DNA of 64,000 nucleotides from Brasilonema angustatum HA4187-MV1. GTDB lineage: Bacteria; Cyanobacteriota; Cyanobacteriia; Cyanobacteriales; Nostocaceae. Location: the NCBI GenBank assembly GCA_019359695.1, contig JAHHGV010000002.1, positions 124,001 to 188,000 of the forward strand, given 5' to 3'. The notes below the pieces were generated by a model. The model made no database searches, was not told where the DNA came from, and saw only the letters and a list, made by a program, of their open reading frames with translations. This document shows positions 30,809 through 33,889 of the stretch, one piece after another (the first letter of the stretch is position 1; every line of letters starts with the position of its first letter). Both the position numbers and the translations under genes were made by a program.

Positions 30809-30925
30809 GGCGAATATAATTCGCTACTACACAAGCGAAGTCCGCCTGCGCGGACTAATGGAAAATTAAGGGTTTCAAACCCGCGTAGGCGGGTTTTGCC
30901 TGTATAGCCGCGATTTCTAATCGCC
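30809..30925. mobile_element. MITE-like inverted repeat
   Basis: Left arm 30809-30855 (GGCGAATATAATTCGCTACT...CCGCCTGCGCGG) is an imperfect inverted copy of right arm 30877-30925 (CCGCGTAGGCGGG...TAATCGCC). The centre is ~20 bp and non-coding. This is a common non-autonomous palindromic repeat form in cyanobacteria. Confidence 0.5.
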
Positions 30926-31026: not shown

Positions 31027-32118
31027 ATGAAACTAACTGGTCCGCAATACAAACAATTCACACAAGCTCTACTTGAGGCATTTCCAGAACAGCAAAGACT
31101 TGCTGAAGTCGTAAGATTCCAGTTTGAAAAAAACCTAAATGCAATCGCCATGGGCAATGACTTACAAGCAATTGTCTTTAGATTGATTCAAGCAGCAGAA
31201 GCTGAGGGATGGGTTGATAAACTGATTGCAGGTGCTCGTGAATCAAATCCTGGAAATTCAGGATTATTTGTCTTTGCCCAAGAATTCAATCTTGCGACTC
31301 CTATGCCACCACAGCTATCAGCAAGAGGCGCATTAGAGAAAATTATTAAGAAAACGAATAGTTTTCTAGACGTGAATACATGGCGAGAAAAGTTAGGCAC
31401 AATTGAAGCGCAAGTCTGCCGCATAGAAATTAGTAATAACAATAATACTAAAGAATTTGGAACAGGTTTTTTGATTGCACCAAATGTGGTAATGACCAAT
31501 TACCATGTCATCGAATCTGTGGATTCAGGACAAGCAAATGCCAGCAATGTTATTCTGTGTTTTGACTATAAACAACTAGCGGATGGCAATATTATCAACC
31601 AAGGTACAGAATATCGCTTAGTAGAGGATGACTGGCTGATTGATAAAAGTCCTTACACCAAAAATACTTTACCAACACCTGACGAATTAGATTATGCTTT
31701 GCTTCGGGTAGATGGAGTTCCTGGAGAAGAAGCGATCGCGAAAAACTCTGATCCAAATGCTCCACAGCGAGGATGGATTTCATTACCTACCCAATCTTAT
31801 GAATTTTTGCCTGAGACTCCATTATTAATAGTGCAACATCCAAAAGCCGAGCCATTAAAATTGGCGTTTGACACAGATGCTATTATTAACATCAACGAAA
31901 ATGGCACAACTGTTAAATATAAAACGAATACTCAGCCTGGTTCCTCTGGTTCTCCATGTTTTGACATTAACTGGAATTTAGTAGCGCTGCATCATAGCGG
32001 TGATCCTGACAGGAGAAATCCAACTTACAACGCGGGAACACCGTTCAGTGCTATTTGTTCACGTTTAGAGAAGCAAGGTTTATTGGCTGATTTACGAAGT
32101 GGTCAACCAATATGGTGA
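31027..32118 (+). CDS. EAD1 domain fused to trypsin-like serine protease (conflict-system effector)
   Basis: 363 aa. Residues ~1-90 (LTGPQYKQFTQALLEAFPEQ, VVRFQFEKNLNAIAMGNDLQ, VFRLIQAAEAEGWVDKLI, ARESNPGN) match the effector-associated domain EAD1, an adaptor that pairs components of bacterial NTPase-centred conflict systems. Residues ~115-355 are a trypsin-like protease: FGTGFLIAPNVVMTNYHVIES holds the His, LDYALLRVDG the Asp, and TQPGSSGSPCFD the Ser. No signal peptide, so cytoplasmic. The next gene carries a second EAD1. Known family logic suggests the protease is switched on when a partner with the same EAD senses a target. No STAND NTPase is in the window. Confidence 0.85.
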   Translation: MKLTGPQYKQFTQALLEAFPEQQRLAEVVRFQFEKNLNAIAMGNDLQAIVFRLIQAAEAEGWVDKLIAGARESNPGNSGLFVFAQEFNLATPMPPQLSARGALEKIIKKTNSFLDVNTWREKLGTIEAQVCRIEISNNNNTKEFGTGFLIAPNVVMTNYHVIESVDSGQANASNVILCFDYKQLADGNIINQGTEYRLVEDDWLIDKSPYTKNTLPTPDELDYALLRVDGVPGEEAIAKNSDPNAPQRGWISLPTQSYEFLPETPLLIVQHPKAEPLKLAFDTDAIININENGTTVKYKTNTQPGSSGSPCFDINWNLVALHHSGDPDRRNPTYNAGTPFSAICSRLEKQGLLADLRSGQPIW

Positions 32119-32559: not shown

Positions 32560-33711
32560 ATGGGTTTGTCTGGAGAAACAATAAGGAAAATAAGAGAAGC
32601 ACTAAAATCTGCCTTTCCAAACCGCGACGAACTGGTGATGATGCTACGCATGGAACTTGATATAAGCGAATCAGAAGTTCCTAATCATTCCAACTATAAT
32701 TTAGTTGTTTTCCACTTAATACAGCAGCTTGACAGCCAAAATCGTATACCAGAATTAATTAAAGGAGCGTTGAATGAACGACGTGGTAATCCCGATTTAC
32801 AGCAAGTCGCTCAAGAAATTAACGCTATCTATTCCAACAGCAACAAATCACTTTTAAAATGGTTTGAATTTGATGTGGTAACGGTGAATGCCCAAGGTTG
32901 GAAAATCGCTCGCAAAAGATGTCGAGCACAATACTTTACGGAAGACTTAGGAAACGGAGTTACCCTAGAAATGGTTGAAATACCTGGTGGTACATTTATG
33001 ATGGGCGCACCAAAAAATGAGCAAGGTAGTAAAGATAACGAACGTCCCCAACACCAAGTCACAGTTCAACCCTTCTTCATGGGTAGATATCCGGTCACTC
33101 AAGCACAATGGAGAGCCGTAGCGGCTTTACCTCAAGTCAACAAAGAACTAGACCCAAATCCGTCTTACTTTAAAGGAGATAACCGACCAGTAGAGCGAAT
33201 TTCTTGGTATGATGCATTGGAATTTTGTGCTAGACTTAATTTTAGAATAAATTTCACAGCGGGAAGGGATTATCGGTTACCCAGCGAAGCGGAGTGGGAA
33301 TATGCTTGTCGTGCAGGTACAATGACGCCCTTTTACTTTGGTGAGACAATAACGACTGATTTAGCAAATTATGATGGTAACTACACTTACGGAAATGCTC
33401 CCAAGGGAGAATATCGGCAAGAAACGACAACCGTAGGAAGTTTTCCACCAAATGCCTTTGGTTTATACGACATGCATGGCAATGTTTTGGAATGGTGTGC
33501 TGATACTTGGCATCCGAACTATGAAGGCGCACTGAAAGATGGCAGTGAATGGATAGCTGAGAATAATAATAATCATTTGCTGCGTGGTGGTTCTTGGCAC
33601 TACGTTCCCGATCGCTGCCGTTCGGCGTCTCGCCTCAACGACGATGAGGGCGTCGGGAACATCTTCGGCTACGACGGTTTCCGCGTTGCGTGTTCCGCCG
33701 CGTGGACTTAG
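32560..33711 (+). CDS. EAD1 domain fused to FGE/sulfatase-modifying-factor (C-type-lectin fold) domain, candidate DGR target
   Basis: 383 aa. Residues ~3-88 are EAD1 (SGETIRKIREALKSAFPNRD, MMLRMELDISESEV, VFHLIQQLDSQNRIPELIKG). After a linker, residues ~130-380 are an FGE-sulfatase domain: VEIPGGTFMMGAP, HQVTVQPFFMGRYPVTQAQW, PVERISWYDALEFCARLN, YRLPSEAEWEYACRAG, FGLYDMHGNVLEWCADTW and LLRGGSW...GFRVACS. The active-site Cys pair of true FGE is not evident, so it is probably a binding domain. The last ~40 codons are GC-rich and N-N-C/T biased, as in variable repeats made by diversity-generating retroelements. Partner: the EAD1-protease just upstream. Confidence 0.87.
   Translation: MGLSGETIRKIREALKSAFPNRDELVMMLRMELDISESEVPNHSNYNLVVFHLIQQLDSQNRIPELIKGALNERRGNPDLQQVAQEINAIYSNSNKSLLKWFEFDVVTVNAQGWKIARKRCRAQYFTEDLGNGVTLEMVEIPGGTFMMGAPKNEQGSKDNERPQHQVTVQPFFMGRYPVTQAQWRAVAALPQVNKELDPNPSYFKGDNRPVERISWYDALEFCARLNFRINFTAGRDYRLPSEAEWEYACRAGTMTPFYFGETITTDLANYDGNYTYGNAPKGEYRQETTTVGSFPPNAFGLYDMHGNVLEWCADTWHPNYEGALKDGSEWIAENNNNHLLRGGSWHYVPDRCRSASRLNDDEGVGNIFGYDGFRVACSAAWT
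33586..33705 (+). other. candidate DGR variable repeat (VR) within the FGE-domain gene
   Basis: Between GGTGGTTCTTGG and GGTTTCCGCGTTGCGTGTTC, the codons are CAC TAC GTT CCC GAT CGC, TGC CGT TCG GCG TCT CGC, CTC AAC GAC GAT GAG GGC and GTC GGG AAC ATC TTC GGC TAC GAC. Constant residues (P, CRSA, R, GFRV) alternate with codons that differ from AAC/AAT mainly at the first two positions and end in C or T. That is what adenine-specific mutagenesis of an AAY-rich template produces. No template repeat or reverse transcriptase is in the window. Confidence 0.65.
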
Positions 33712-33889
33712 TAGCCCTTTATACTTTTGTCCTTTTCCCCTTTATTCTTTTTTCTTTTCTCTGTGTCAGCGGAGCGGAGCGGAGCGAGATAATTTTTTTC
33801 AGGAAATAGAGTTGCTCAAAATACAACCCACTTGAATATTCTAATTTAAAAATCTCTAAAACACAACTATTTCAATAAAAACGTCAAAG

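Follow-up and report, generated by a model that had tools for sequence, protein, structure and literature searches.

An EAD1-FGE gene of Brasilonema angustatum is a probable orphan target of cyanobacterial FGE-type DGRs

The gene at positions 32560-33711 (forward strand) of the window, that is, of the 64,000-nucleotide stretch of the Brasilonema angustatum HA4187-MV1 genome analysed here, is an ORF of 383 aa that encodes a variable protein with EAD1 and FGE domains. We consider it about 85% probable that this gene is an orphan target of cyanobacterial FGE-type DGRs, which was rewritten in the past, is now probably dormant and would have functioned as a sensor. Judged from the nucleotide sequence, the last ~40 codons are a DGR variable repeat (VR), and the gene is a genuine DGR target of a known type that stands as an orphan in the draft assembly. 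Neither the DGR reverse transcriptase (RT) nor the template (TR) was found in the assembled genome, and the target is therefore probably dormant.

A blastn match to the TR of locus L181 delimits the VR, including its fixed 5' and 3' parts, at 33578-33708 (+); the variable codons occupy 33598-33675 (+), as defined by the template adenines and by codon-position bias in three of four orthologues. The original prediction, which had located the variable stretch at about 33586-33705 and described it as GC-rich, was accurate on both counts: the G+C content is 0.58-0.63 from 33580 onward vs 0.33-0.52 in the preceding 60-base blocks. Its proposal that the variable codons are altered AAY codons is borne out by the L181 TR, which comes from a genome of another genus of the same family (G011). 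With the single 6-base gap of this alignment placed for the fewest total mismatches, the VR core is changed at 17/29 template adenines and 2/46 other bases (two-sided Fisher p 1.9e-7), and four other listed gap placements yield 17-19/29 adenines vs 2-4/46 other bases. When 12 bases of the 3' fixed part are added, the counts become 17/29 vs 4/58, and with 36 bases, 17/30 vs 12/81 (p 2.3e-5); by eye, many of the bases mismatched in this added part are common to the VRs of the genus. Indels weakened a first, gapless alignment of the VR to 22 TRs, so gapped comparisons with 21 TRs were used instead, in a template set that left out L193 (no GFR motif) and L053. L181 was chosen as the closest of the 21 by non-adenine mismatches; in one gapped comparison, L185 and L183 gave smaller p-values. 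The same TR also fits other VRs of the genus, such as that of G005:C257 (20/29 adenines vs 1/58 others), with a poorer fit in G001 (18/29 vs 10/58).

Orthologues of the window gene were found in three sister species (G003, G004 and G006) at 89% DNA identity, and G001 contains a deleted copy. Comparison with the G004 orthologue shows differences at 11/24, 11/24 and 1/24 of codon positions 1, 2 and 3, respectively, in the VR, and at 18/345, 19/345 and 47/345 in the gene upstream of it (Fisher 3.4e-6 for positions 1+2 vs 3, VR vs the remainder of the gene). The pattern is similar in the comparison with the G006 orthologue (10/26, 10/26, 4/26) and with the G001 copy (8/24, 11/24, 2/24). Change concentrated in the first two positions is thus apparent in three of the four comparisons; the exception is G003 (8/23, 13/23, 8/23), with no bias against position 3. 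The best template type for the G003 VR is L183 (20/30 adenines vs 12/78 others), which differs from that of the window VR, and this sequence comparison suggests that the G003 VR was rewritten from a different template, or else converted. Taken together, the template and orthologue patterns support the prediction that adenine-directed retrohoming has left its imprint on a domain of the FGE/C-type-lectin type that is fused to EAD1. Divergence from G003, G004 and G006 is 0.02-0.15 per site through 33519 and increases to 0.25-0.31 in the remainder of the gene, from 33520 onward, and in the 48 bases immediately 5' of the VR (33520-33567) it is already 0.27, a rise that has no DGR explanation. This segment corresponds to a loop with many Asn codons that diverges between the orthologues. 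The G006 orthologue is frameshifted and most of the G001 copy is deleted, which hints at decay of the target gene.

Searches with RVT_1 and with a DGR RT alignment found no DGR RT in the 8.5-Mb B. angustatum assembly (98 contigs, 99.7% complete). The seven RVT_1 matches, five with the catalytic core and a PQG motif by eye and two truncated, all lack the DGR-type motif, and the best score against the DGR RT alignment is 5.6e-28, for an RT located just before cas1, vs 1.2e-205 for the RT of G005. This RT, on contig C61 (L026:9437-11721), was rejected as the DGR RT, because it is group II-like, scoring barely under the cut-off of the group II model, and its gene lies immediately 5' of cas1. With the L181 TR as the query, 22 matches (E <= 0.01) were obtained across the seven genomes of the genus. 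Two of these are in the B. angustatum genome, namely, the window VR itself and a relic on contig C57, and no TR was found there by this search. The VR query likewise retrieved no near copy in this genome, the best other match being 67% identical. Thus, the AAY-rich template that was predicted to lie beside a DGR RT was found in none of the 98 contigs, and neither was the RT, so that the claim of a remote retroelement acting in trans in this genome is not sustained; the RT and template may fall in an assembly gap or have belonged to a lost replicon. Two observations had been named in advance as refuting the DGR reading, a genome devoid of an AAY-rich template and synonymous drift among homologues; the former was made, within the limits of a draft assembly, and the latter is contradicted by the homologues. 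The C57 sequence (L005, G000:C57:238433-238590) is a disrupted copy of FGE that contains a VR-like stretch, with pyrimidines running, by eye, 3' of its homing site, and is likely a DGR target relic. Separately, the FGE ends of L004 (contig C78 of B. angustatum), L164 (G002), L068 and L079, from different species, have the sequence SWNE[PS][DE]GGLRICGFR in common, as if frozen.

Loci of this type with linked FGE, RT and TR are found in relatives, which were collected by a protein search of genome contigs (the best 80 of 584 used). A motif search of 121 sequences identified six loci in which an FGE match is followed downstream by a DGR-type RT, recognized by the motif IGNLTSQ; a seventh motif match, L099, is not an RT, by eye. 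In five of the six, the TR differs from the VR at TR adenines only (best 60 bases), and in the sixth, L053, no pair was detected at the strict limit and a looser search found a weaker one. A DGR-type RT at E <= 1e-40 is present in 17/59 genomes from the same genus, family and order. Among the 20 of the 26 listed RT places that were taken for repeat analysis, 17 contain an adenine-type repeat pair, 15 with zero and two with one non-adenine mismatch (best 60 bases); no TR-VR pair was found in L195-L197, which are partial RT matches. An RT relative was detected in 66 phage records, in all cases below 60% identity.

Within the genus itself, a DGR RT was identified in only one of the seven genomes (G005), and we traced three target-template pairs with no RT between target and template. 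At L218 (G006:C166) and L219 (G002:C360), an FGE gene with a VR is followed, about 200 bases on, by an intact TR with no RT between them; the gene is caspase-FGE by Pfam in G006 and FGE by similarity in G002. The changes in the G006 VR relative to its own TR fall on 19/28 adenines and 0/97 others, and those in the G002 VR, less cleanly, on 15/28 adenines and 13/97 others. When the two VRs are compared with each other, 13/27 adenine sites and 19/94 others differ. Between the same two genomes, the TR together with the downstream sequence shows 3/279 differences, compared with 34/547 in the upstream FGE coding sequence (Fisher 3e-4) and 18/203 in the spacer (Fisher 4e-5). A third pair (L212, G005:C190), with target and template ~250 bases apart and again no RT between, has changes at 13/29 adenines vs 1/102 other bases; the only DGR RT of G005 is on a separate contig, C182. 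We read these pairs as an indication that the templates stayed useful and the targets were rewritten with no RT in the locus, and the sister genomes thus make action in trans plausible. The G002, G005 and G006 assemblies consist of 340-450 contigs each, that of G002 being 89% complete, and given this fragmentation the absence of the RT from G002 and G006 is tentative.

These pairs bear directly on the possibility that the window gene is still active and continues to be rewritten in trans, by an RT and a template that escaped assembly or are carried by a plasmid. The pairs of G006, in which a TR and a VR persist and no DGR RT was detected, and of G005 are compatible with such an arrangement, as is the VR of another template type in the G003 orthologue, and RTs of the same clade are indeed carried by cyanobacterial plasmids (6/15 plasmid records with a match). 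Against it stand the lack of a detectable DGR RT in six of the seven genomes of the genus, one of which is assembled into only 3 contigs, and the failure to find a template in the B. angustatum assembly. Ongoing rewriting accordingly seems to us unlikely, although not strongly so. Far less probable is the emergence of the variable island by rapid positive selection or by gene conversion among FGE paralogues, with no retroelement involved. The genome contains eight FGE matches, and conversion could spread VRs between loci and could also explain the different VR type of G003, but the changes sit on the adenines of a relative's real template and the third codon positions are nearly fixed in three of the four comparisons; a donor paralogue with the same VR was not found at high identity (67% for the best other match). 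We know of no reason for selection to favour template adenines.

A comparably improbable alternative is that the domain functions as a formylglycine-generating enzyme, or one like it, and that the variation tunes its specificity. The Pfam match to FGE is strong, but a variable Tyr occupies the place of the first active-site cysteine when the protein is compared, by eye, with the C2 paralogue, which contains the motif GGSFLCAPNYC, presumably the first active-site cysteine motif of formylglycine-generating enzymes. By this inspection, the protein does not have the full pair of active-site cysteines that characterizes these enzymes.

The dormant-looking target nevertheless retains a VR-type 3' end and a pyrimidine tract as in linked DGRs. 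The 3' fixed part (33676-33708, +), which we take to be the likely initiation-of-mutagenic-homing site, ends in GTGGACT and, as assigned from sequence, is of the VR type: in three (L047, L052, L075) of five VR/TR pairs examined, the VR has GGACT where the TR has GCACT. The first 26 bases of this part recur, with at most three mismatches, in six of the seven genomes of the genus and in 8/217 genomes of the family, B. angustatum included. The stop codon is followed by a pyrimidine tract (33715-33762, +; the first 60 nt past the stop have a pyrimidine fraction of 0.82) and then by a G+C-rich AGCGGAGCGGAGCG stretch and a T run (33767-33799, +), in which a stem scan detected no perfect stem (at least three G-C pairs, loop of 3-8 nt).

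In the 21 linked VRs for which this measure was taken (of 22 loci; L193, with no GFR motif, was left out), the pyrimidine fraction is 0.65-0.90 in the first 60 bases past the stop and 0.38-0.45 in the corresponding stretch behind the TR. A pyrimidine fraction of at least 0.65 was observed in 23/23 VR-pattern genes of RT loci, 44/59 VR-pattern genes of other loci, 11/22 other FGE ends and 42/1193 other ORFs of at least 150 aa, in a control set that is biased, having been fetched for FGE and RT genes, and in which related loci are not independent. At 0.75, the tract is found in 66/121 FGE-tail ORFs vs 3/1176 others; by eye, two of these three exceptions (L056 and L070) are FGE tails that the pattern missed, and the third (L083) resembles one. 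The paralogues on C11 and C89 of B. angustatum have no tract (0.53 and 0.52), and the in-frame value of the C57 relic is 0.52 because the relic reads past its tract. A perfect stem of at least 6 bp occurs in 21/67 tract-positive tails (1.4 expected) vs 0/15 tract-negative tails; in the window tail, no perfect hairpin of at least 6 bp was found. Among the titles and abstract beginnings listed by searches of open-licence papers, none describes a pyrimidine tract at FGE-DGR targets.

The tract is possibly a plain terminator. A further possible but rather doubtful reading, which we offer tentatively, joins two proposals: that the ~50-nt post-stop pyrimidine tract, behind which a G+C-rich stretch or hairpin and then a T run are often found, is an undescribed 3' homing element, and that the DGR of the genus is split, with targets on the chromosome (together with templates in three species) and no RT beside them, the RT being supplied in trans from another locus, as in G005, or from a replicon or element outside the assemblies. 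Homing of the BPP-1 DGR likewise requires a short sequence immediately 3' of the VR, as described in passages of Guo et al. 2011 (PMC3240598); according to the same passages, BPP-1 and phage DGRs carry a 7-10 bp hairpin 4-34 bp past the VR, whereas in the window the pyrimidine tract comes first and there is no perfect hairpin. Cis features, such as cruciforms and homing sites, have already been suggested to activate remote DGR targets (Vallota-Eastman et al. 2020, PMC7517822, in part). Orphan targets may be cheaply recognizable by the 3' pyrimidine tract, and the RT-less target-template loci of G002, G005 and G006 make supply in trans directly testable.

The architecture of the protein is simple: EAD1 (aa 1-87, E 9.9e-18) and FGE-sulfatase (aa 137-377, E 1.1e-58) are the only Pfam domains among its 383 aa. 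The VR sits at the C-terminal end of the C-type-lectin/FGE-fold domain. In the predicted structure, the mean pLDDT is 71, and the VR region itself (residues 328-368) is modelled with low confidence, below 50; therefore, no claim is made on the side chains of the VR. Variable protein 1 of Treponema denticola is both a sequence and a fold relative of the FGE part, ranking second in the PDB sequence search (E 1.5e-23) and third in Foldseek (PDB 2y3c); this match is devoid of EAD1, and the sequence query was the window protein without its EAD1. We take this protein, which is a DGR variable protein, to be TvpA.

Upstream of the target, at 31027-32118 (+), is a gene for a protein with EAD1 (E 1.6e-24) and Trypsin_2 (E 1.6e-17) domains by Pfam, a probable effector partner. 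The two neighbours thus share the same EAD type, as is characteristic of EAD conflict systems, and the EAD1-trypsin gene lies beside EAD1-FGE also in G003, G004 and G006 (93-96% aa identity). By domain analysis, the pair is likely a sensor and a protease of the published conflict-system kind; the sensor role is inferred from the domain architecture and from published inference. The window pair resembles the EAD-centred conflict systems of Kaur et al. 2021 (PMC8195603) in combining EAD1, FGS (FGE), trypsin effectors and homotypic EADs; in the passages of that paper concerned, EAD and FGS are linked via a STAND NTPase, unlike in the window protein. Parts of Dore et al. 2024 (PMC10907252) describe putative conflict sensors of multicellular bacteria that are diversified by DGRs, and report incomplete loci and activity in trans. 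The window protein is similar to these in joining a VR-bearing FGE/CLec domain to an EAD, with an EAD-trypsin protein nearby, but in the example given there FGE is combined with EAD8 and a STAND NTPase, whereas only EAD1 and FGE were recognized here by Pfam. The remote variable proteins of cyanobacterial DGRs, in the relevant passages of PMC7517822, are defined by identity to a DGR target of the same genome, lie more than 5 kb from the RT and are often fused to signalling domains; the window gene shares their C-terminal CLec and the position of the VR close to its 3' end, and differs from them in belonging to a genome with no detected RT or TR.

It seems likely that events followed this course. 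A DGR RT of this lineage, the action of which would be recorded in the imprint, would have copied an RNA of the TR, making errors at its adenines, and the resulting cDNA would have replaced the final ~130 bp of the FGE domain, randomising ~12 AAY codons and a few more while the scaffold codons were kept. The variable face of the FGE domain would bind an invader ligand, whereupon EAD1 may recruit the EAD1-trypsin protease encoded beside it, with cell death or inactivation as the outcome. Hypervariable conflict-sensor genes with the VR-type end and the tract persist in genomes with no detectable DGR RT and would therefore be missed by an RT-first search.

Two minor observations concern the surroundings of the EAD1-trypsin gene. 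A lone direct repeat match to Rfam CRISPR-DR28 is located at 30834-30857, and in G001 (L168) the EAD1 start of the trypsin gene continues into an FGE gene remnant, as if after a deletion.
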